Positions 203 through 63,239 of a stretch of DNA of 64,000 nt are shown in pieces. The translations under genes were made by a program, and so were the position numbers. The notes beneath the pieces are model-generated. The model searched no databases. It was not told the DNA's origin and worked only from the letters and a program-made list of their open reading frames with translations. Position 1 is the stretch's first letter; each line of letters opens with the position of its first letter. The stretch comes from Brachypterus glaber (taxonomy: Eukaryota; Arthropoda; Insecta; Coleoptera; Kateretidae), in NCBI GenBank assembly GCA_958510825.1, contig OY294052.1, positions 6,593,816 through 6,657,815 on the forward strand, written 5' to 3'.

Positions 203-1030
203 TAGTTTAGTTTAGTTTAGTTCAGTGCGGGGTTCACTGCCCTCAACACCTGATCCCTAGGACCTTTGTGTTAACCGCACAGATCTCCTCATAACATCCC
301 TGTTTCTTTTATAAAGTCCAGGTACGGTTTCAGGGGAGTGTTCATGATCTCGTTAGGTTCCAGCGAGTCGTTCCCAAAGTACCTCCATCTTAGCCCTATT
401 AGAGATGGACATTCACATATGAGGTGGTAGGGCTCTTCATCCCCTTCCCCACATCTCCTGCACACGGGGCTCGTAGTCTGTCCCATTTGGTATCGGTGCT
501 TATTCAGTAAGCAGTGCCCAGTTATTATACCCGTTATTACTCTCAGTTGACTTCTGGACATGCCTAGAAGTAAGCTGGTTCTTTTCTTGGTTGGCCCCCC
601 TAGAAAGAGTTTAGAGTGTCTCATTTTAGGTGCATCTATCCAATGTTGCTGGTGTTCATTCCTCAACATTTTCCTGACCTCGTGTCTGGCAGTGGAATAA
701 GATACCCCACAGCACGGTTCTGGTCCTGTGAGTACGGCTTCACTCCCCTTTCTTGCCAGGTCGTCTGCCTTCTCATTACCATCTATTCCTTGATGTCCTG
801 GTACCCATATCAAATTTACTTTGTTATGTTCAGCCAGTTTACATAGCTCGCTGTGGCATTCATATACCAGTTCCGAGCTAAAGGCATATGAATCTAATGC
901 CTTTATTGCTGCCTGGCTGTCTGAAATGATATTTACTGTCCTACCCGTGTAGGACTCCAATACCATTTCTTGTGCGCAGACATAAATCGCATAGATTTCC
1001 GCTTGGAAAACGGTTGCATTGGTTCCCAGG
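203..1030 (-). mobile_element. 5'-truncated LINE insertion
   Basis: An 828-bp non-LTR retrotransposon fragment read on the minus strand. Its 3' end lies at the left, with a tail of TTTAG repeats (plus-strand reading, 203-225), and its 5' end is cut inside the RNase H domain. It is flanked by direct repeats of about 156 bp (47-202 and 1031-1186) that differ at only two noted positions, which I read as a very long target-site duplication. The 3' UTR after the stop codon is only about 85 bp. Confidence 0.85.
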
Positions 1031-1038
1031 TTACGCAA
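289..1038 (-). pseudogene. LINE RNase H domain and C-terminal zinc knuckle, 5' truncated
   Basis: The frame begins inside an RNase H fold: FQAEIYAI carries the conserved Glu, IISDSQAA the second acidic residue, and NEKADDLA the last Asp. The first catalytic Asp strand and the whole reverse transcriptase are missing. It ends with a Cys/His cluster (CRRCGEGDEEPYHLICECP) and FIKETGML, an arrangement usual for the C-terminus of jockey/I/R1-group LINE ORF2 proteins. The reading frame is open for 249 codons, but the first residues come from the target site, so this is a 5'-truncated dead copy rather than a gene. Exact clade is not resolved. Confidence 0.85.
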
Positions 1039-21891: not shown

Positions 21892-22334
21892 CTAAGAATT
21901 TCTTAACTTATTAGCTCGTTTCTCCATTGCCAAAAAATATACACTTGGAAAATATTTCCTTAAGAAAATAGCTACCTTTGGCAAAACAGTTGAAACCACA
22001 ACCTCTTTCTTTTTCTGAGCAACTGCCTGGAAAATCTGCTCAGAAACGTAATCCGGATCATATCCAGATTCTGTTGTTTTGTCCAGTTCTCCATATTTAG
22101 CTCCTGTTCCTGTTAGAGCATTCAAGGAGAGGTTGGTTTTGATGTAACCTGGACTTACGACTGAGACATTAATATTGTGACAAGCTATTTCTGCTCGTAG
22201 GCTGTCACTGAATGCTTGAAGGGCGTGTTTTGATGCACTGTATGCTGACCTTTCAGGCAGAGCTACTAGTCCTTGTACTGAACTGACAAATATTACGTGG
22301 CCCTCTTCTCGTTTCACCATTCCTGGCAAAACAG
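21892..22334 (-). CDS. SDR exon 3
   Basis: Acceptor TATATTTCAG, phase 1. Encodes AVLPGMVKREEGH, the catalytic Ser and YSASK, and the C-terminus MEKRANKLRNS. The frame continues open upstream of the acceptor, but those residues are intronic. Confidence 0.93.
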
Positions 22335-25300
22335 CTGAAATATACAGAAAAACATTCTGTGAAAATATATAATGCTTACATTCGATAGTATACTCCTTGC
22401 AGTTGCAAGTAATTTTGTCCTGGTGAAGTTTTAATTGAATTGTCAAAAAAAAAAATTACCAAAAGTCCAAAATTTTATATTTTTTAGGACATAAAAAACT
22501 ATTCTTTATTATATTCTGGTTATCTAAAGGGATACCTTTAACTTTTTACTTTCTCACGGAAAGCATTGTGATGGAAAAAGAAATCTTTTTTTTTTGTCAA
22601 AATCATCTTATTCTAGTCTAGGCACGCCTCTGGATAAGTTCAAAAAAATAAATTAACATAAACTTATTGCCTTATTAATACTAGTATACAGGCAAAAGCT
22701 CGTCGCTCTAGCTTAAAGGGTACCAGAGTTATTAATTAAAAACCTTATTTTTATTACAATTTTAAAGGGCCCTAGATCCCTTAGGGCTCATTTGCGGACC
22801 AACCTTTATAAGAACTTTTTATGATATTTTTGAATGCAAAGTCACCTCTTAAATTTTGGCAAGCCAGTTATTGATCACATAGCTCGATGCACAGAACACA
22901 AATAAAGCCGATCCATTAAATATACAGCCTGTTCCAGAACTCGCATACCGAAATTTAAGAGGTGATTCTACATCCAAAAATATGAAAAAAAGTTTCTATA
23001 AAGGTTGGTCCGGAAATGAGCCCTAAGGGAGCTACGGCCCTTCGAAGATGACGTATTGAATGGGGAACAAAAAAAAGCACCAATAAAATTTTAATGCTGC
23101 AGGGTGATTCTTCATTTAAAACTGAGCAAAAAAGTATTATACACCAAAACACCTAAATTTAATATTAAAGGAGTAATAGCCTTTTAAAAAGTAACGTTTT
23201 TGGTGGCACAAAATGTTACTTCCTCTTAATTGCATTTTTTTTTTGATAACGGTTGCTCCTACAGTGTTACAACTATATGATATTTTATATGTATTTTTAC
23301 TCTAGAAATCTATATTTTTTACAACAAATCCAAAAAACATACACATAGAAAAGTTTGGGGCAAAAATGTTTTAAGCCTCATATATTTTGTCCGTCTGGGC
23401 ACGCCTCTGGATAAATTAAAAAAATAAATTAACATAAACTTATTGCCCTTATTAATACTAGTATACATGCAAAAGCTCGCCGCTCTAGCTTAAACGGTAC
23501 CCGAGTTATTAATTAAAAACCTTATTTTTATTACAATTTTAAAGGGCCCTAGATCCCTTAGGGCTCATTTCCGGACCAACCTTTATAGGAACTTTTTTTA
23601 TATTTTTGGATTTAGAATCACCTCTTAAATTTTGGCCTGCCAGTTATGGGTCACCCTGTATTACTACAAATGCCTTGTGGGTGTGGCTAAATTTTGTGAA
23701 ATATGATTGGATATGGTCAAACAATAATTGGCTGAAATCACTCAACTTGATAGAAATAAATAATTAAATAAACTTAAGACGATATTATCTCTCCAAAAAT
23801 GTTTTTATTATCATTTATGTAATAATAATAAAAACATTTTTGGAGATATTTATGTAATAATAATAAAAACATTTTTGGAGAGATAATATCATCTTAAGCT
23901 TATTTAAAAACTACCTCCAATATGAGCAAGGATCATCAAAAATATAACTTTTTAAATATAACTTTTTGATAGAAATACATTAGTTTAAATGAGTCTAAAA
24001 TTATGCAACTCCCAGATCGGACAAACAGTTTCACACGCGCCAGAAAAAAATAATCGCTTCTAAAATAAATCTCTTATATCTCTGGCAGCGACTATACTTA
24101 CCTTTTGTTAATGCAACAGATCCGAAATAATTCACCTTCATTATTTCCATATCAACATCTGCTTTGGTATTTAAAACAGTACCTCTATGCGAGACACCAC
24201 CATTATTGATTAAAATATCAATATGTCCTGTTATAGCTAAAATTTTGTTTACGTCATTTTGCAGATTGTTGATTTCACATAAATCCAGTGGAATAATAAT
24301 TGGTGGATGCGCCTGCATCACAGGATGAGTTTGCAAAAGTTCATTACGAACTCTGTCCAGTTCTTGCCTTCTTCTGGCACATAACACCACCTGACACCCT
24401 TTTTTATAGAACTCGTGGGCCAGTGATTCTCCCAAACCAGAACTTGCACCAGTTATTACTACAATCTACAAATTTATTTCAAAAAATGACACAGTTTGAA
24501 AAATACAGAAAAAAATCATTAAAAAACAGGGCAAAAACAGGCAAAAGACGGAATTTTCTGTCTGAAAGAGGGTATTTACCGAGGGGTTTATTTATTTGAC
24601 AATCCTTGTACACATATCCAACAATCTTTTACAATCCTTGATAATTCCTTCTTTCACAATCATCTACAATCTTCAATAATCATATGAAATATTTAACAAT
24701 CTTCACTAAAAATTTTTACAATCTTTCACAATCTTTTTGACAATCTTTCACAATCTTTTTGACAATCTTTCACAATCTTTTTGACAATCTTTCACAATCT
24801 TTTTGACAATCTTTCACAATCTTTTTGACAATCTTTCACAATCCTTTGATTCTCACAACCCTTATACACGTTTTTTTCAATAAATAAACCACTCGGTATT
24901 TACCGGTAAAAACCAGGCCACAAATGCCTATAAGGTGGAAAAATTCAAATTTTGTACAATCTTTCACAATCTTTTTGACAATCTTTCACAATCCTTTGAT
25001 TCTCACAATCCTTGTTCACGTTTTTTTCAATAAATAAACCCCTCGGTATTTACCGGTAAAAACCAGGCCATAAGGTGGGAAAATTTAAGTGGTTTTTACC
25101 GCTATTTACCAGGGTTTAAACGTGGAAAAACATTGCCAGCCCTGTTAAAAAATGTAATTTGTTGGTGGAAAGTTTTTAATTTAATTTAAAGTAACGACAA
25201 AAAAAATTAAATGGATAACGCTTAAGGTTAACCTAATTAGCACCGCAACCGACTTTTTTTTCAATTCTGTTACAATTCTAATTTCTTATGTTTTTTAGAT

Positions 25301-26880: not shown

Positions 26881-29800
26881 GTATTCAGAAATTCCTATTT
26901 TTTATAAAAAATATATTATTGATTTTTTTATACTTTTAGAATCTAACACAAAATACGCGAAGTATTTAAAATTTTATAATGAGGCAAACCAAAATTATGT
27001 TCCTTGCGATAATAATAATTGTAACTGCTATACAGCTGCTATCAAAAATGATTTAGCTGCATTTAAATCGGGAATTTCTAAAGACATGATACAAAACATA
27101 AAATCTAAGTAAGAAAAACTTTTTTTATACCTAAGCTTCATAATTCTTTATTGATAAATATAAGCTTTTTCATTGATAAATAATTATTTTAGGGGTACAA
27201 AATATCAAATTATCAATCATACATTATATCGAGAAGAAAATTGTATGTTTCCTGCTAGATGTGCAGGAATCGAACACTTTCTTCAAGAATTGTTGCCAAA
27301 ACTTCCGGATATTGAGATGATTGTCAACACTAGAGATTGGCCCCAAATTACAAAACACTATGGTGTGTTTGGACCTGTATTTTCTTTTAGCAAAACACAG
27401 GAATACCATGATATTATGTATCCTGCTTGGGCTTTCTGGGAAGGAGGACCAGCTATAAGCTTATATCCAAGAGGAATAGGTAAGGAACTTCAGTGATGTA
27501 CTTGGCACAAAGATCAGACCATAAAACTTATCAGTTTAGCTATAATGGAGCTCTCTACAACTAGAATTATGAAACAAAAGACATCTACCCTATCTCTATC
27601 TTATTTGTGCTACACTTTCCAGCCAACCAAATGAATACTGTATTTGTTTTTCATACAACAAATACAGTATTTGTTTGGTTGGCCGGAAAGTGTAGCAGTG
27701 AGTGGCAAGAATGAACATAGCTAATGTGAATCTGTAGAATAAGATAATTCTACTAAAATTTAGATGGCGCCAGTAATTTCTTTAATAAAAATAATATAGT
27801 TACACTTTTTGCCCGGCCAAGTATTGTATTTGTTCAACAAAGAACAAATACAGAATTGGTTTGGTTTGGTGGAAGTGGGAGTGTCTGTATGTCTTCTATC
27901 TTTTTTGGGTAAAACTTTTGTCCCTGTCTAATCTAATGGGAGAAATCTCCATTAACTACTTTATTAACAAAAAAAATCCATCTTAAATGAGTGAGAGTCC
28001 TTTTTCATAAAAAAATAAATTTAATCATTGATTAGTATGATGTTTTTGATTTTATTTTCAATGGATATTGCTGTAAATAATTTTTTTACATTTTGGGGCC
28101 CCCCTACCCAAACCAGTATATTTTATTTATTTAGGTCGATGGGATAAGCACAGAGTAAAATTGGGACATCTGGGTAATGCTTCTTTATGGGAAGACAAAA
28201 TTCCAAAAGGATTTTTCAGAGGATCCCGAACCAGCAGTGAAAGGGATCCTCTAGTTCTTTTATCCAGAGAAAACCCAGAAATTATTGATGCCCAATACAC
28301 CAAAAATCAAGCATGGAAGTCTGATGCAGTAAGTGCTTTTAATACATACATTTGTTAAAAAAAAAATTTTTTAGTAAAATTTAGTACTTATATTGGATGT
28401 GCAGCATAAACCAGTTTCAGTTTAACTAAAACTAAAAAAAAAAAAATCAGTCTGAAAAAATTTGTACTTCAATCATTGTAAAGAGAAAAAATAATCTTTT
28501 TAATGATATCGACGAGCCATAGACGTAATTAAGCAAAAATTCTAGTAAAAACAAAACATGTCCTTTTCCAAGTTTATTTTTCGTGTAAAATTAAAAAAAT
28601 TCGTATTTTTCTACCAATGTTTAATCCAAAATGAATAGATTTAGTACGTTTTCAGATAAAGAAATCAAAATTTTATTTAAAAAATGACAAAAGTTGTCAA
28701 GATTTGACAAAAACTTAGGATAATTCACAGAATTTAATAGAGAATCCAAATATGTAAAAATATATACAGGATTTTCCATTTAAAAATAAAAAGTTGGGGT
28801 CGTTTTTGGTTAAACCGGAAGTAAAAAAAAAATACGTTAGATGACCTAATTCAAAATATAGTCTTATAGACACCCTATAAATTTTATTCCTTTATCTTTA
28901 AGAATAAAAAGTTATAGTGGCGAGCCACCTTTGAAAAACACCCGGTATAATGAATTTTAGGTATATACCTATATAGGGGCCCAATAAGATACTCAGGCTC
29001 TGCCTGTTCCTGACAATATACAGGGTGATCCATAAATGGCATGCCAAAATTTAAGAGGTGATTCTAGATCCAAAAATATAAAAAAAGTTCCTATAAAGGT
29101 TGGTCCGGAAATGAGCCCTAAGGGATCTAGGGCCCTTTAAAATTGTAATAAAAATAAGGTTTTTAATTAATAACTCGGGTACCGTTTAAGCTAGAGCGGC
29201 GAGCTTTTGCATGTATACTAGTATTAATAAGGGCAATAAGTTTATGTTAATTAATTTTTTTTAATTTATCCAGAGGCGTGCCCAGACGGACAAAATATAT
29301 GAGGCTTAAAACATTTTTGCCCCAAACTTTTCTATGTGTATGTTTTTTGGATTTGTTGTAAAAAATATAGATTTCTAGAGTAAAAATACATATAAAATAT
29401 TATATAGTGTAACACTGTAGGAGCAACCGTTATAAAAAAAAAATGCAATTAAGAGGAAGTAACATTTTGTGCCACCAAAAACGTTACTTTTTAAAAGGCT
29501 ATTACCCCTTTAATATTAAATTTAGGTGTTTTGGTGTATAATACTTTTTTGCTCAGTTTTAAATGAAGAATCACCCTGCAGCATTAAAATTTTATTGGTG
29601 CTTTTTTTTGTTCCCCATTCAATACGTCATCTTCGAAGGGCCGTAGCTCCCTTAGGGCTCATTTCCGGACCAACCTTTATAGAAACTTTTTTTCATATTT
29701 TTGGATGTAGAATCACCTCTTAAATTTCGGTACGCGAGTTCTGGAACAGGCTGTATTTTAAAATTTATAGCAAATAAGTCTCATATTATTAAAGTTATTA

Positions 29801-32790
29801 TATTTATTAGGTACCTATTAATTTAAGGAACTATCTAATTTTAGAAATAGCGCATTCGCCATAAATTAAAACAAGCCTGTTACAGGAATGGACTGTAGGT
29901 ATACTGGGGTCAATAATATATTTTTTCTACTACCTAATTAAGTGCTAGCTTAAATATTATCTACCGTTGTCAAGGCTTGTTTACGTTGACAACCAATAAA
30001 ATCAGTTAACTCATTTATTATTGACCGTTGTTAAGCATTGTTTATTGACGACAGTCAATAATGAATAAAATTAAGACAACTGCTAACTTTTTTCTACTTA
30101 CTTGTCAAACTGACAGCTATGTCAAAATATTTTTTAAACTACATTAGTAACTAATATTTGGAGCTACTGCCTTTAGGTAGTAGAAAAAATGGTATAAAGT
30201 CCATGATACTGCAATACCGCTTAACGTCCAACTGCAAAACCGCGTAACGTCCAACTGCAAAACCGCGTAAGGTTTAGAAACAAAATTTTACAGGAGAAGG
30301 AAAAACTTATTATATTAATGATTAACAGAAAAGTAACGCTTTTTAAAGTAAAAATATTATACTTTAAGCTGGCTAATAAAATATTTATTAAACTAAAATA
30401 TTATAACAATGATATACCAATAGTATTACTTAATATTATGTCTTCATTATTTTCTTCTTTTGGTTTATTTGGAGCTCTATTTTCTATACAATACCGAATA
30501 GTCCATTCTTTTATTCCGAGTGTGTTAAGGAACGTACTTTTGCAAACCCTTTTCTTTTGATCGTTAATTTTCAGGTAGTATTTTCTTGATTCGGATCTTC
30601 TCGAAACATTTCCATTTAATTTCTTCTTCTTAATGGTTCCTTCTACGTCTATCATTGATAATAAAAACACATTCTTCTACCCCCACGTCATTTTTCAAAA
30701 ATCTTTAAATAAATCTTCTCTGTTCTTTTCTGTAAACATATTACAGTTGAATACGTTCGTATTTTTACAATATTCTGATATACATGCAGGTCCTAACTTC
30801 CTTTCTTCTTTTGATACATCCTGGACAATTTTTTCACTCTGTTTTCTAAACCCGGTGTATTCCTGGCCCATCATTCTCTGCTTTTTGTTTAATTCCCTTT
30901 TCCACTGTGTTGAATCGGCTTTTTTCTTCCTTTTTCTAATTTTCTTGCAGTCCTCTGGATCTACATGCATTTTCATCTCAGGATCCGCCTCACTTTCTAT
31001 TATTTCTAAGCATAAATCCATTGTATATGCGTTATTAAAAAATACAATTAAAAATTCATACGTCAAATTTTTGTCAACGCGGTTTTCAAATAAATATCTG
31101 ACCTACTTGATGAATTTTTAAATGAGAAATAATAAATTTAAAAAGCTTAAAAGGCGTTTTAAAATGGTTATTTCTCACAAATATTAACTCAATATACGCC
31201 ATTTATTGTGTAGATCACGCTTGTGCAAAATCTTGATTTTGCTACTTTCATTAGTTACGCGGTATTGCAGTTAGACGTTACGCGGTTTTGCAATTGGACG
31301 TTAAGCGGTATTGCAGTATCATGGACGATATGCACCACATATGCAAACTGTCTTAAGTGTTCTCGACTGATTTTTTGCCTCGACTCCGTCTCAGCATAAA
31401 AACTTCAGTCTCAAACACTAAAGACTTATTATTCCATCAATCTATTTTCTAATCATCGTACAGAGTGATATTGGTAGACTGACAGTTTCGGGCTGCTGGC
31501 CCTCTTCAGTACCAAGAGTCAACTCTGCACGCTGATTAAGAAAACGTTTTTAGACTTTACTCGCAAAAGGAATATAGCCATTAGATTGATGTAGACCAAG
31601 AGTCAACTCTGCACGCTGAAGAGGGCCAGCAGCCCGAAACTGTCAGTCTACCAATATCACTCTGTACGATGATTAGAAAATAGATTGATGGAATAATAAA
31701 TTAATATTTTTATAATTTTGTTTAAAATTAAAAATTTCTGTCCTTACTAATTTTACGTCTAACCATCCGTTAGTGGTACTATGTGCTTGAGACACACAAG
31801 TCTTCAACTTGCTACCATTCAAAGTCTCCAGATAAGGAGAGGTATGAGTAGTTGTCTACATCTAGAAATAGATGGCGCACAAGTCTACATCAATCTAATG
31901 GCTATATTCCTTTTGCGAGTAAAGTCTAAAAACGTTTTCTTAATCAGCGTGCAGAGTTGACTCTTGGCACTGAAGAGGGCCAGCAGCCCGAAACTGTCAG
32001 TCTACCAATATCACTCTGTACGATGATTAGAAAATAGATTGATGGAATAATAAATTAATATTTTTATAATTTTGTTTAAAATTAAAAATTTCTGTCCTTA
32101 CTAAAGACTTTTCGCATACTAGGTGCATAACATAATATTTCTATTAATTTACGCATAATAGCAGTTATAACATACAGTGACATTAGTATATAAGAAACAA
32201 CCCACTTATAGTACAAAAAATCTTATTTATTATCCCGAAAAATATTGTTTTTTGCCCCTTTACTAGGGCATGCACGTACCGGGACCAGCGAAGTTGGCCC
32301 TGAGCATTATGTTCCAAAACATTTTTATTTAAGTTTAGAAAATCTAAAACGTATTTTGTTTCAGGATACTCTAAACGCACCTCCAGCCAAAGAAGTTTCA
32401 TTTGAAGATCACTGCAAATATAAATACCTTTTCAACTTCCGCGGTGTTGCCGCCAGTTTCCGCCTCAAACATATATTACTTTGCAAATCCCTGATTTTCC
32501 ATGTAGGCAACGAATGGCAGGAATTTTTTTACCCGGCTCTGAAACCCTGGGTTCATTACATTCCAGTTGAATCCTACGCAAGTAAGGACCAAATTTTTGA
32601 TTTGATCAGTTTTGCCATGGATCATGATGATATTGCTAAAAAAATTGCTGAAAATGGGTACAACATAATTTGGCAAAAACTGAGATTGAAAGATGTTAGT
32701 TGTTATTGGTTGAAGTTGTTAAAAAGGTATGCAAAACTTTTAAATTTTAATCCCATTTTGGATAAAAATTTAATTGAAATCGTTAATTAA
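26745..32790 (+). CDS. rumi: Protein O-glucosyltransferase rumi / POGLUT1 (5 exons)
   Basis: Join 26745-26880, 26940-27108, 27193-27479, 28135-28328, 32365-32790: 1212 nt, 403 residues (Drosophila Rumi is about 410), all splice sites GT-AG with matching phases (1, 2, 1, 0). A signal peptide ([15 protein letters not shown]) is followed by the CAP10-type glycosyltransferase. Diagnostic blocks: [22 protein letters not shown] (about 147-153), [32 protein letters not shown] (285-298) and [16 protein letters not shown]. The enzyme adds O-glucose (and xylose) to EGF repeats of Notch and similar proteins in the ER, and is needed for Notch signalling. Oddity: the C-terminus ends NLIEIVN, without the KTEL-like ER-retrieval signal of fly and human orthologues. 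Intron 4 (4 kb) holds transposons and hammerhead ribozymes. Confidence 0.95.
26940..27108 (+). CDS. rumi: rumi exon 2
   Basis: Acceptor TACTTTTAG; encodes [14 protein letters not shown] and a CDNNNCNCY cysteine cluster, matching the N-terminal part of Rumi. Too short and stop-bounded to appear as a long frame. Confidence 0.9.
27193..27479 (+). CDS. rumi: rumi exon 3
   Basis: Acceptor TATTTTAG, donor AATAG|GTAAGG. Carries the most conserved half of the catalytic domain, GTKYQIINH to [11 protein letters not shown]. Confidence 0.95.
27547..27950 (+). mobile_element. GGAG-terminal MITE, copy 2 (rumi intron 3)
   Basis: GGAGCTCTCTACAACTAG to GGGAGAAATCTCC, flanked by AT. It has the complete hairpin CTACACTTTCCAGCCAACCA with CAAATACAG stems, missing from copy 1. 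Confidence 0.85.
28135..28328 (+). CDS. rumi: rumi exon 4
   Basis: Acceptor TTATTTAG, donor GATGCA|GTAAGT. In the spliced frame it begins [11 protein letters not shown] and includes [18 protein letters not shown], the donor-sugar binding region of CAP10 enzymes. Confidence 0.95.
28767..28945. repeat. CAGG/CCGGAAGT family fragment
   Basis: From CAGGATTTTCCATTT to AACACCCGG with a TTAAACCGGAAGT block, inverted ends and TA flanks. Short relative of 7145-7922. Confidence 0.6.
29021..29753 (+). mobile_element. CAGGGTGATCC MITE, complete copy in rumi intron 4
   Basis: Sense-orientation copy flanked by TA (29019-29020, 29754-29755). Nearly identical to the copy in the dehydrogenase intron. Confidence 0.8.
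30197..31328 (-). mobile_element. Dead DNA transposon with modular TIRs
   Basis: About 1.1 kb. TIRs start GTCCATGATACTGCAATACC and each carries repeated modules of ~24-26 bp reading CTGCAAAACCGCGTAACGTC. Comparison with the empty site at 43.0 kb gives a 2-3 bp duplication (TA/ATA). It encodes a broken protein on the minus strand. Confidence 0.8.
30401..31066 (-). pseudogene. Transposon-encoded protein with two in-frame stops
   Basis: Two collinear open stretches in one minus-strand frame (31066-30695 and 30670-30401) are separated by only eight codons and two stops, a TGA after LFKDF and a TAG after KMTWG. Residues [47 protein letters not shown] and [12 protein letters not shown] belong to a protein family met very widely in insect genomes as uncharacterised, repeat-borne proteins; TGA most likely replaced a Trp. 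It starts with an acidic/basic N-terminus and ends before any DDE core, so the transposase catalytic part is deleted. I cannot name the superfamily. The opposite-strand 162-codon frame (30633-31121) is its shadow. Confidence 0.7.
31457..31531 (-). ncRNA. Type I hammerhead ribozyme, complete (minus strand)
   Basis: Read on the minus strand: outer helix I CGTGCAGAGT pairs with ACTCTGTACG; internal loop TGACTC/TATC; inner helix I TTGGTA pairs perfectly with TACCAA; core CTGAAGA; helix II GGGC-CAGCA-GCCC; core GAA; helix III ACT-GTC-AGT; then C and the predicted cut before TACCAA (plus-strand 31477/31476). Every conserved core base (CUGANGA, GAA, A-U at 15.1/16.1, GUC) is present. The helix I internal loop and loop II are where activity-enhancing tertiary contacts normally form. 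Confidence 0.88.
31616..31668 (+). ncRNA. Hammerhead ribozyme, 5' arm replaced
   Basis: Core CTGAAGA (31616), helix II, GAA, helix III and the 3' arm TACCAA/ACTCTGTACG are intact, but the 5' arm is an inverted copy (ACCAAGAGTCAACTCTGCACG, 31595-31615), so helix I cannot form. Predicted non-functional; it marks the inversion junction. Confidence 0.75.
31948..32022 (+). ncRNA. Type I hammerhead ribozyme, nearly complete (plus strand)
   Basis: Same fold as 31457-31531: outer helix I 31948-31957 with 32013-32022; inner helix I 31964-31969 (TTGGCA) with 32003-32008 (TACCAA), carrying one C-A mismatch; CTGAAGA 31970-31976; helix II 31977-31989; GAA 31990-31992; helix III 31993-32001; cleavage expected after C32002. 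It is in the sense orientation of rumi intron 4. Confidence 0.85.
32365..32790 (+). CDS. rumi: rumi exon 5
   Basis: Acceptor TTGTTTCAG, phase 0, stop TAA 32788-32790. Encodes [17 protein letters not shown] to the C-terminus. In-frame sequence before 32365 is intronic. Confidence 0.95.
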   Translation, partial: DTLNAPPAKEVSFEDHCKYKYLFNFRGVAASFRLKHILLCKSLIFHVGNEWQEFFYPALKPWVHYIPVESYASKDQIFDLISFAMDHDDIAKKIAENGYNIIWQKLRLKDVSCYWLKLLKRYAKLLNFNPILDKNLIEIVN

Positions 32791-53400: not shown

Positions 53401-54565
53401 GAACCAACGTTTATTGGAACTATTTTTCCAAATATCTGCGAAGAGAATCATTTTATTAACATAAATTTTAATGAAGTAAATTATAGATAATTTTATTAAT
53501 TTACGGTGCTTTATAAAGCATATTATAATTTATTAATGATTAGTTAATAAATTATGAACCATACCAATTAATTTTGATTTTTTTTTTCTTTTCAAATTTA
53601 GTCCTGTCAAATGAGGTGGAATTTCTATGTTGAAATTTCAAAAATGCACACGGACTGATATTTTAACGGGTAGTAGTGGATCGTAACGCTGCCTTCCCAA
53701 ACTGAAAGATAGTACCTTTTAGCTTAGCACGGCAGAAAGGAACACTCCTGTTAGTTTTTCACTGAATTATTTGCGTAACGGGTGTCCGCTATCTTGAATT
53801 TTAAGGATAAGTGCGGTTTTCTCGATAAATATGGGTATTTTTATGAAAGCTTAGCACAGCAGAAAGGAACACTCCTGTTAGTTTTTCACTGAATTATTTG
53901 CGTAACGGGTGTCCGCTATCTTGAATTTTAAGGATAAGTGCGGTTTTCTCGATAAATATGGGTATTTTTATGAAACTATATATAACTTCATGTTATCCCA
54001 AATAACACCGATGATCTAAGAATATTCTTTAATTATTCTTAGAATAAACTTTTAGATCTGCTATGATTATGCTTAAAACTTGCGCTTAAAATGCATAATC
54101 TATGCATCACCACCAGGTTGGAAAGGGAATGTTCAAGTATTACGTAAAGCAAATTTTGATCATTTTGGACCCCCCGCCCTGTAACGCTATTTTCCTATAC
54201 CATTACCATGGGCGTAACACTCCAAAATGACCCCCACCCCCCCTAGGAGCATTACGTAATACTTGAACGTTCCCAAACCGTGGGAAACATTGGCTCGAAT
54301 CCAGACTGAGACCTGACTTTTTTTCTAATTTTCTCTTCTGTCCGATATGACACTAATATTTTCTTTCACTGATAATCATGCCTGAATCAGTCTTAATTAA
54401 TTAATTACTTAAAAACTGAAAAAAAAAATTTTTTCTATTTTTGTTTTTAATTTATAAAATATATCTTACCTTCATCATAGCATATTTCTTGATGAATCTG
54501 TCCTCGCTGCCTCCAAATGCCAGCACACTCACAAAAAGTAGAGGAAATGCAATCACAATCTTCAT
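44126..54565 (-). CDS. Secreted OBP-like protein with Gln/Pro-rich insert (5 exons)
   Basis: Join on the minus strand of 54565-54470, 47540-47271, 46858-46661, 45822-45607 and 44425-44126: 1080 nt, 359 residues, every exon a whole number of codons and every splice site GT-AG. Signal peptide MKIVIAFPLLFVSVLAFG. Cysteines at 37, 57, 213, 256, 262, 286 and 295. The core CVMQELGYLDDN ... LPVSEELKRDMQDG ... C with 42 residues between Cys213 and Cys256 and eight between Cys286 and Cys295 fits the PBP/GOBP (odorant-binding) fold. Between Cys57 and Cys213 lies a Gln/Pro/Tyr-rich stretch (exons 2-3), and an acidic 64-residue tail follows the last Cys. OBPs carry small hydrophobic ligands in extracellular fluid. 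Atypical length; subfamily and ligand unknown. Confidence 0.85.
44530..45180. repeat. Distant relative of the CATCGGCACTTAGTGC repeat
   Basis: TTTTTTTCACGTTTCTCGACG and a GTCTGTCTATCG block match the family in the TMEM11 introns. Located in intron 4 of the OBP-like gene, followed by A/T homopolymer runs (45240-45480). Confidence 0.5.
45240..45480. repeat. Poly-A/poly-T low-complexity tract
   Basis: About 240 bp made almost only of A and T homopolymer runs that can fold on each other. No gene content. Confidence 0.9.
45607..45822 (-). CDS. OBP-like gene exon 4
   Basis: Acceptor TATTTTAG, donor TTTTCG|GTAAAT. Encodes RDMDIKSQLEALTNRM, VTCVMQELGYLDDN and DGVNFCQQFS, the clearest OBP-type part. 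Confidence 0.88.
45871..46067. mobile_element. CCCAAGTAAC MITE
   Basis: Ends CCCAAGTAACAGTAGCTATA and TATAGCTACTTGTGTTACTTGGG (inverted), flanked by AT. Two internal hairpins with ACAGCCATAATGGCTGT. A partial copy is at 48838-48950. Confidence 0.8.
46350..46648. repeat. AACGTTA family element
   Basis: CCCTCTGGTGGAGAATAATG to TTAAATTTTTACCAGGGC, with many AACGTTA motifs. Ends 12 bp before the splice donor side of exon 3. Confidence 0.6.
46661..46858 (-). CDS. OBP-like gene exon 3
   Basis: 66 codons, acceptor TTATTTAG, donor ATGTCT|GTAAGT. Low-complexity NPQYSQPQAYRPYGPS and YYQGYQQQMPYLPYS; no cysteine. The plus-strand frame over it is a shadow. Confidence 0.82.
46859..47270. other. OBP-like gene intron 2
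   Basis: AT-rich intron, no repeat recognised. Confidence 0.6.
47271..47540 (-). CDS. OBP-like gene exon 2
   Basis: 90 codons, acceptor TTATATTCAG, donor CGACCA|GTGAGT. Encodes IYESCFGPEVVKQIRKEM, Cys57, then LPIHQQQPAQSDENSGEN and AFDVEKLNQAIFAFRP. Confidence 0.88.
47631..47720 (+). promoter_or_regulatory. Heat-shock-element promoter-like cluster
   Basis: Two HSE-type clusters, CTTCGCGAAGGCTCTAGAAC and GCGAAGGCTCTAGAAGGTTC (alternating GAA/TTC with 2-nt or 10-nt phasing), lie just upstream of a TATA box (CATATAAAT, 47692-47700) and an initiator TCAGT with its A at 47718, about 24 nt downstream of the TATA. Located inside intron 1 of the OBP-like gene and pointing the opposite way. It may be an LTR or a captured heat-shock promoter; no downstream protein was recognised. 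Confidence 0.55.
47821..48072 (+). mobile_element. CAACGAACTAAT hAT-like MITE, complete
   Basis: 252 bp, TIR CAACAAACTAATAATACTTC and its inverse ending GGTTCGTTG, flanked by GATCGTAC at 47813-47820 and 48073-48080. The two short frames across it are shadows of the palindrome. Confidence 0.9.
48081..48837. other. Intron 1 of OBP-like gene, unassigned
   Basis: No exon; continuation of the sequence interrupted by the MITE at 47821, then AT-rich DNA. Confidence 0.45.
48838..48950. mobile_element. CCCAAGTAAC MITE, partial
   Basis: CTCAAGTAACACAGTAGCTA and CAGCCATATGGCTGC blocks; right end missing. Confidence 0.6.
49297..49956. mobile_element. Foldback element interrupted by hAT MITE
   Basis: GTATTAAGAGCGCAAAATGA with GATTTCTGCTTAAGCGTG on the left is inverted on the right as CGCGAAAGCAGAAATCACAT and TTTGCGCTCGTAATAC. 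The hAT copy at 49372-49901 sits between the arms. Confidence 0.75.
49372..49901. mobile_element. hAT-type MITE, copy 2
   Basis: Copy of 41751-42297. Left end intact (CAAAGAACTTTTACC); the last bases TTCTTTG of the right end and part of the duplication are deleted (TAGC remains). Confidence 0.85.
49972..50390. mobile_element. TTTTTTCTACGATCTAA TIR element
   Basis: Ends ATTTTTTCTACGATCTAA and TTAGATCGTAGAAAAAA. Interior has an inverted pair around CTTTTCTGCTTGCTGTCATG/CAACGAGCAGAAAAG. Frames over it are not supported as genes. Confidence 0.65.
50690..51095 (-). repeat. Interspersed repeat with GC-rich palindromic core, copy 2
   Basis: Inverted copy of 1031-1472. Palindrome TATTCCGCGTGAGCGGAA and CCCGCGAGCGCGGAATGA with CGAGCCGGTAGGCGAG between. 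Confidence 0.7.
51386..52110. mobile_element. CTACCAG TIR element
   Basis: Left AAAATATTTTTTTCACTACC-AG, right CTGGTAGTGAAAAAAATACT; about 0.7 kb with no coding frame. Confidence 0.6.
52111..52227. repeat. GC-centred hairpin
   Basis: GTGAGTGAAGATTTAACATT with GCGTCTTGCGGG pairs with CCCGCAATTTGACGC and AATGTTAAACTTCTCTCAC; centre CTTCGCGCTAGCGCGC. Confidence 0.8.
52262..52545 (+). mobile_element. tRNA-derived SINE candidate
   Basis: A B-box GAGTTCGATTCTCAC at about 52329 follows CCTACTAGCCAATAGC and an A-box-like GTAGTAGTCTACC, as in the head of tRNA-derived SINEs. The body continues to GTAATGTAATA simple tail. It does not fold into a full tRNA acceptor stem, so it is not a tRNA gene. Confidence 0.5.
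52870..53309. mobile_element. GGATATCC foldback element
   Basis: 440 bp, TIRs TACCCATACAGCACATAAT and ATTATGTGCTGTCTGGGTA. The whole interior is made of GGATATCC-type palindromes in both orientations (for instance GGATATCCATGGATATCC), so the element can fold at many levels. Confidence 0.85.
53721..53976 (+). repeat. 127-bp tandem duplication
   Basis: AGCTTAGCACGGCAGAAAGG to GGGTATTTTTATGAA occurs at 53721-53847 and again at 53848-53976, nearly identical; the second has ACAGC for ACGGC. Confidence 0.9.
54125..54274. mobile_element. TTACGTAA MITE, copy 1
   Basis: 150-bp near-palindrome, GGGAATGTTCAAGTATTACG to CGTAATACTTGAACGTTCCC. Full copy at 60120-60270 and one end at 56137-56181. Confidence 0.85.
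54470..54565 (-). CDS. OBP-like gene exon 1
   Basis: Encodes the signal peptide and SEDRFIKKYAMMK; donor ATGAAG|GTAAGA in phase 0. A TTTACAG just upstream of the ATG (10 nt) suggests a separate 5' UTR exon further out. Confidence 0.85.
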
Positions 54566-62472: not shown

Positions 62473-63020
62473 TATAATTTTTCATTTGACAGCACGCCTA
62501 TGCAGTGCTTAACGCATTCATTGTATGTAATGAGAAAATACCCGTTTGTTTTTTTTTATCTGCATAACATTCGCGTTTCTTTCTGTACGTCTCATTGATA
62601 TCTCCACGAGTAGCTCATAAAGATGCTTTTTTATTTCCTAACGACTATGTATAGCCACGTAATTATTAACTGCTATATTTGCTTATAAACAATGGAATCG
62701 CACGTCTACGCGTTTTTCTATTAAATATATACAGAGTGGAACAACTGTTAGATATAATGTTACAGAATAAGATTTTTTAAATTTTAATCAAAGTTTATTT
62801 ACCATACGGTAATAAAATTATTACAGACGGGGGGTGGGTGTCAGTAAAAATGTTACGTAAGTTTTATTGCACACGGCGCGCCGCAAATTTTATTGTCGCG
62901 GCGTTCACTAAATCCTCTAAACAAAGGCAATAACCGGTTTTCCGTTAAAAATCTTGAAAATATTAAGCCGCGTTACATGGGGGGGGGTGGAGGTCAGAAA
63001 TGGCCAAATTTTGCATTACG
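62473..63020. other. Spacer with TTACGTAA relic
   Basis: TGTTACGTAAGTTTTATTGC to TTTTGCATTACGTAATAATT (62850-63028) looks like a diverged relative of the TTACGTAA MITE, with a CG-rich patch CACGGCGCGCCGC. Confidence 0.45.
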
Positions 63021-63239
63021 TAATAATTGAACTTTCCCTAAGTTTCACTTCAAAACAATTTTAGTTGGTTTTTATTTATTGTTAAATAGCTTCGGGGATT
63101 GTTTCGTTCATAAGTTGGCAGTAAAAACAGTAATAATTGAACTTTCCCTAAGTTTCACTTCAAAACAATTTTAGTTGGTTTTTATTCATTGTTAAATAGC
63201 TTCGGGGATTGTTTCGTTCATAAGTTGGCAGTAAAAACA
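63021..63239 (+). repeat. 110-bp tandem duplication
   Basis: TAATAATTGAACTTTCCCTA to TTGGCAGTAAAAACAG occurs at 63021-63130 and 63131-63239 with a single noted difference (TTTATTTA/TTTATTCA). Confidence 0.9.

Follow-up and report, generated by a model that had tools for sequence, protein, structure and literature searches.

How was a short non-coding repeat with hammerhead ribozyme motifs inserted, partly in inverted orientation, into an intron of a beetle gene, and which enzyme could have carried out the reaction? The question is raised by a stretch of 64,000 nucleotides from contig OY294052.1 of Brachypterus glaber (Kateretidae), hereafter the window, for which an earlier note had proposed a partly degraded retrozyme-like repeat. 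We find that the repeat is, as judged from its sequence, a member of a recent and non-autonomous family of metazoan retrozymes without long terminal repeats (non-LTR retrozymes). The family forms arrays, and its copies are usually inserted as two arms joined head-to-head, with outer ends of two classes and a duplicated target site. Penelope-like elements (PLEs) with the same anatomy reside in the same genome. We suggest, with a probability of roughly 0.78, that the two-armed insertions arise when PLE machinery uses both target strands as primers to reverse-transcribe circular or multimeric retrozyme RNA.

Structure of the insertion

Positions 31428-32099 of the window are a single insertion of 672 bp which is flanked by an 11 bp target-site duplication. 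Read from left to right it consists of the minus arm, a short inverted stretch where the arms meet, and the plus arm, which spans about 1.4 units. The arms are head-to-head, as 31426-31596 is to 99% the reverse complement of 31883-32053. A plain tandem pair is ruled out by these inverted arms. Neither the arrangement of the arms nor the duplication had been mentioned in the earlier note. The locus is composed of the following features.

31417..31427, no strand: target-site duplication, left copy, 11 bp, ACTAAAGACTT
31428..31596, minus strand: minus arm, unit positions 235-354 followed by 1-49, outer end at about 49
31455..31533, minus strand: complete type I hammerhead with a perfect 6 bp inner helix I, predicted cut 31477/31476
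31596..31619, minus strand: short inverted patch at the arm junction (unit 319-296 on the minus strand), which stands in place of the 5′ strand of helix I at the first plus core
31616..31648, plus strand: start of the plus arm, a hammerhead core without the 5′ strand of helix I (incomplete ribozyme)
31649..32002, plus strand: one full 354 bp retrozyme unit, numbered from the predicted cut site
31946..32023, plus strand: type I hammerhead with one A.C mismatch in the inner helix I, predicted cut 32002/32003
32003..32099, plus strand: end of the plus arm, unit positions 1-97, outer end at about 97
32100..32110, no strand: target-site duplication, right copy, 11 bp, the same sequence
28329..32364, plus strand: host intron (GT..AG) between the last two exons found of a rumi/POGLUT1-like gene
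32365..32781, plus strand: last exon of the rumi/POGLUT1-like host gene, Pfam Glyco_transf_90

Hammerhead motifs

Two identical cores (CTGAAGA-GGGC-CAGCA-GCCC-GAAA) start at 31616 and 31970 on the plus strand, 354 bp apart and followed by repeated sequence, exactly as the earlier note had stated. A third copy of the core lies on the minus strand at 31509-31486. The three helices that the note had folded by eye for the plus cores are present at 31970, where we find every core base, helix II, a short helix III, the inner helix I and also the described outer helix I of 10 bp. This copy has an A.C mismatch in the second inner helix-I pair (T320C relative to the family majority). The minus copy has a perfect inner helix I of 6 bp together with the 10 bp outer helix I. 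For the core at 31616 the folding does not hold, since the inverted segment 31596-31619 precedes the core and helix I is absent.

When segments of 78-79 nt were compared with shuffled sequences, the copy at 31970 (z = -3.84) and the minus copy (z = -4.60) gave better folds than all 200 shuffles, and the core at 31616 folded no better than the shuffles (z = 0.05). A structural scan for the core, helix II, helix III and at least five of six inner helix-I pairs found two hammerheads in the window, namely these same two copies. In 60 first-order Markov simulations of the window the scan returned five loci in total, about 0.08 per window. The bare pattern CTGANGA..GAAA occurs seven times in the window with 3.04 matches expected and is by itself weak evidence. 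A scan of viral contigs for the hammerhead core gave no matches. By its predicted structure the element thus possesses the type I hammerhead with complete core that is typical for metazoan retrozymes. It was also expected in the note that the locus yields a circular RNA of about 354 nt. The release of such a circle from this very locus is unlikely because the upstream plus-strand hammerhead at 31616 lacks helix I.

The retrozyme family

The B. glaber genome of 648 Mb contains at least 320 matches to the element, counted among the best candidates, and tandem copies are spaced by 354 bp. Tandem relatives with this period, on which the note had staked its reading in part, are therefore present as arrays in the same genome. 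We analyzed a first set of 39 loci (the window and 38 clusters formed from the best listed of the 320 matches) and, from a second search, 12 loci outside this set; loci are given L numbers. In the first set 36 of 39 loci have arms in both orientations, and a single arm may measure less than one unit or as many as 14 units. The rearranged look of the window locus is thus the usual insertion structure of the family, and because this structure is normal the term partly degraded is not apt. An array of the second set on contig C1 runs in a single direction over about 9.5 kb and at least about 27 units, as inferred from match positions and 1,500-base flanks.

The unit of 354 nt is non-coding (longest stop-free run 65 codons) and has a GC content of 35.9%. 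Together with the predicted hammerhead and the arrays this bears out the retrozyme reading of the note. Metazoan non-LTR retrozymes have likewise been described as tandem non-coding units of 170-400 nt with a type I hammerhead, a GC content below 50% and duplications of more than 4 bp, which here are 10-17 bp long (PMC7229834, Cervera and de la Pena 2020). They are further characterized by self-cleaved RNA circles in tissues. No LTR, primer-binding site or polypurine tract was noticed on reading the unit, no search being aimed at them. The head-to-head insertions with two fixed outer ends set the family apart from those retrozymes, and PMC7229834 nowhere uses the word "inverted" in its main text. 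The LTR retrozymes of plants are also non-autonomous retroelements with hammerheads and without protein, but they are described with type III hammerheads, LTRs with primer-binding site and polypurine tract, and 4 bp duplications (PMC7761336). The present family differs by its type I topology and its longer duplications. The cave-cricket satellite DNA pDo500 (PMC2808323) is another insect tandem repeat with a hammerhead, which we liken to the family by its description only. In our literature search, which was of limited reach, we met no account of retrozymes inserted head-to-head with fixed ends in pairs; we do not claim that none is in print.

Among 124 full-length units the mean difference is 0.58% within arms and 0.69% between loci, and the medians are equal. 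This small divergence indicates that the family is young. All core bases are kept in 120 of the 124 units, which were chosen by coverage, a choice favouring intact hammerheads; of the four others, one has a gap where the unit begins or ends, which the alignment itself may have produced. No usable covariation was found, as there is too little difference among the young copies and the changes in older ones (e.g., L087-L096) are only scattered.

Several arrays have variants of their own. In L030 (C4:69219400-69226300), which comprises 14 units, two array-specific variants recur, in units 4, 7, 9 and 12 and in units 5, 8 and 10, a pattern that repeated copying of a multimeric template with slips could produce. 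Recurrence every two or three units is seen in both L030 and L034. Runs of units sharing array-specific variants are found in other arrays such as L026, where four of five units are concerned. These patterns fit a multimeric template, slippage on a circle or unequal exchange at a later time. In the five loci with full units in both arms, the opposite arms shared a single variant, a common one.

Outer ends and arm junctions

We determined the outer ends in two-armed loci with an exact duplication of at least 9 bp directly abutting unit sequence. In the first set, 27 of 28 tested loci pair an end at 45-57 with an end at 94-100 (unit positions), in either orientation, and the same rule is followed by six of seven tested loci of the second set. 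Taken together, 33 of 35 two-armed loci end near position 51 on one side and near position 97 on the other. If each end were chosen independently with even odds, 33 or more opposite pairs among 35 would be expected with p ~2e-8. The two sites are about 46 nt apart, a spacing which we call the tail, and they lie about 84 and 130 nt past the hammerhead core.

The first set further includes one one-armed copy with a duplication (L027), three loci whose duplication does not exactly abut the unit (L009, L024, and L045; their ends obey the rule), and seven loci without an exact duplication of at least 9 bp (L014, L015, L016, L031, L034, L036, and L041), of which at least L015 and L016 are clipped by the extent of the fetched stretch. 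In the second set L069, L079, L082, L085 and the C1 array stand outside the test.

The duplications, 10-17 bp long, have an A+T content of 82.6% (29 loci). This enrichment is modest because the window itself has about 69% A+T. In 28 of 36 loci the two arms overlap by at least 1 bp where they meet; overlaps as large as 12-38 bp, seen in six loci, are due to local self-complementarity and to extension of the BLAST alignments. Of the 72 inner ends, 19 lie within unit positions 286-321, next to the helix-I sequence of the hammerhead, which is self-complementary; 7.3 would be expected there. Head-to-head arms, a tail at one end only (33 of 35 loci) and a duplicated AT-rich target are also what is found in the insertions of PLEs.

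Penelope-like elements

PLEs have been proposed as strong candidates for moving animal retrozymes on the grounds that both have type I hammerheads and tandem copies and that they occur together (PMC7229834); the possibility is mentioned again in a curation guide (PMC8969392). These grounds are circumstantial, and the repeats themselves were described as having no motif which points to a machinery (PMC7229834, PMC7761336). For the Anolis PLE it has been demonstrated that the purified protein cuts and extends both strands and starts inside the RNA, with the start sites bounding the tail (PMC11167929). Penelope of Adineta carries an inverted pLTR, an optional tail of 31 bp and a 9 bp duplication, and the head-to-head arrangement is the commonest one (PMC3846280). 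The retrozyme family shares with these PLEs the inverted arms, an optional tail between two internal start sites of reverse transcription and the target-site duplications, and furthermore AT-rich targets, a hammerhead near the start sites and an array-like structure. Its tail of about 46 nt compares with the 31 bp in Adineta and with the 30-40 bp described for PLEs in general. Differences are the lack of an open reading frame and a hammerhead helix III which is fuller than in the minimal type of the PLEs.

In the B. glaber genome at least 31 GIY-YIG matches lie above the family cut-off, with 150 of 419 candidates scored. The domains RVT_1 and GIY-YIG are found within one open stretch in L057 and in two overlapping open stretches in L065. 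A stretch of L059 without a Pfam match is 40% identical to the reverse transcriptase of L057 over 250 residues, including the YVDD motif. A search of solved structures with a PLE reverse transcriptase fragment yielded only weak matches to viral polymerases. The copies of one group, PLE-A, have a minimal hammerhead with a loop-free helix III, as read by eye, and have two end sites, which lie 101 and 133 nt past the core, compared with about 84 and 130 nt in the retrozyme. Of 13 PLE-A ends seven are tail ends, four are short ends, and two are unclassified. In the two head-to-head PLE-A loci seen (L054 and L060) one short and one tail end are combined, and the flanks share 14-nt words.

The retrozyme sequence is unlike that of the PLEs of this genome with the exception of one short segment. 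Comparison of the unit with PLE start regions gave AT-rich chance matches apart from a stretch of about 37 nt in L050 (L050:325-361). Together with the related L097-L102 this stretch represents a PLE-associated family with 24 genome matches. In all six fetched stretches of this family an antisense segment similar to the retrozyme unit from about 350 to 51 adjoins a minimal hammerhead. The segment stops near the start site at position 51, and in older copies the similarity to the retrozyme extends over about 30 nt.

Proposed mechanism and alternatives

We suggest that insertion could proceed in the following steps. The units would be transcribed, cut by their own type I hammerheads and circularized. 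A PLE-type protein with reverse transcriptase and endonuclease would cut an AT-rich target with a stagger that leaves about 10-17 nt as 3′ overhangs. The two overhanging ends would serve as primers for reverse transcription that begins within the retrozyme RNA, near positions 51 and 97 (about 46 nt apart), as a rule with a different site for each target strand. On the circular or multimeric template each reverse transcriptase could cover anything between part of a unit and many units. Finally, the two cDNAs would be joined head-to-head, often at short microhomologies, and repair would leave the target-site duplication. Ribozyme cleavage, the circular template and a PLE as the enzyme are the inferred parts of this scheme. 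In a more specific version, which we hold to be less likely than not, the two reverse transcriptases of one PLE dimer take one target strand each as primer, begin at different internal sites of one circular RNA and move in file in the same direction. The head-to-head array would then directly record a rolling-circle reverse transcription with coupled, dual target priming; the self-complementary helix-I sequence would help to join the cDNAs.

Several observations weigh against the PLE mechanism. For the Anolis PLE no strand difference in start sites was seen in vitro, whereas the two strands of the retrozyme insertions nearly always use different sites, and hammerhead cleavage was not required for insertion by the Anolis protein (PMC11167929). 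A partner PLE with a start-site sequence common to the retrozyme was not found in the genome. The end rule is broken by L080 (49/54) and the composite L039 (55/52), L036 ends at 56/56 without an exact duplication, and L014, L027, L031, and L082 are one-armed. With respect to the ribozyme, the covariance-model check proposed in the note gave no Rfam family at gathering score in the window; the best hammerhead match, RAGATH-1-hammerhead, has the right core register and 16 bits (gathering score 56.3, E = 1). Nothing reached gathering score in eight fetched loci either, which included PLE hammerheads, and since Rfam also misses these the negative result is weak. In the minimum-energy fold the hammerhead core is lost to pairing with the helix-III strand (ACUGA with UCAGU; -34.1 vs. 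-23.9 kcal/mol for the hammerhead fold), in a comparison that excludes tertiary contacts. Finally, units within an array are hardly more alike than units of different arrays (0.58% vs. 0.69%), and repeated copying of a single monomeric circle is therefore not demonstrated.

The similar divergence within and between arrays is also what would be expected if the template were not a circle but a linear multimeric transcript of an array, used by the same enzyme with the same two-site priming. Such a template would explain the variants recurring at two- or three-unit spacings in L030 and L034, and the Anolis PLE used unprocessed RNA in vitro (PMC11167929). The very long arms, with 14 units in L030 and at least about 27 units in the C1 array, are easier to obtain by rolling around a small circle, and the variant-sharing runs (four of five units in L026) fit a circle as well; neither point is decisive. 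We regard a purely linear template as the strongest of the alternatives, with a real but smaller chance of being correct.

The two-armed structure itself recalls the twin priming of long interspersed nuclear elements (LINEs), which gives inverted 5′ segments and target-site duplications. Twin priming has one fixed 3′ end and one variable internal site, however, and here both outer ends are fixed and opposite in 33 of 35 loci. The unit has no poly(A) or LINE-like tail, and the PLE-A copies of the same genome show the same two-ended structure as the retrozyme. Mobilization by a LINE instead of a PLE is thus improbable in our view, even if LINEs have been suggested beside PLEs for metazoan retrozymes (PMC7229834).

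Tandem arrays of fixed period, in which some neighbouring units share array-specific variants, would also fit satellite DNA spread by recombination, with the hammerhead as a relic. Yet the dispersed copies with their own 10-17 bp duplications and fixed ends need retrotransposition or another insertion mechanism, and the divergence is tiny. We reject a spread without insertion on account of the duplications, and we consider a satellite origin very improbable. A microRNA-like hairpin is hardly credible at all, as the plant families MIR2619 (56.1 bits) and MIR5070 (31.1 bits) that Rfam places over the inverted arms are far below their gathering scores (113 and 100), on which we reject a microRNA precursor, and as a hairpin is the trivial product of two head-to-head arms. 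An autonomous PLE is rejected as well, since the unit contains no open reading frame for reverse transcriptase and GIY-YIG.

Host gene and surroundings

The host intron of 4,036 bp begins with GT at 28329 and ends with AG at 32363-32364, and the plus arm lies in sense orientation relative to the rumi/POGLUT1-like gene. The best named protein matches of its exons are from beetles (Dendroctonus, Diabrotica). The same intron contains 23 bp tandem repeats at 30208-30270 and 31254-31322, which are in inverted orientation about 1.1 kb apart and are perhaps the subterminal repeats of a DNA transposon. Elsewhere in the window we note an open reading frame with an RNase H domain (289-1038, minus strand), probably a retrotransposon remnant, an exon-like open reading frame for a short-chain dehydrogenase (21892-22446, minus strand), and near-perfect two-copy tandem duplications of 127 and 110 bp at 53721-53975 and 63020-63239.

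Significance

Which enzyme moves animal retrozymes was an open question in the papers of 2020. The paired fixed ends described here are a positional record of the insertion reaction and make mobilization by PLEs directly testable. They also bear on how PLEs use their own two start sites. Each two-armed copy moreover holds a built-in inverted repeat, so that read-through transcripts, for example the pre-mRNA of the rumi-like gene, could form long hairpins.

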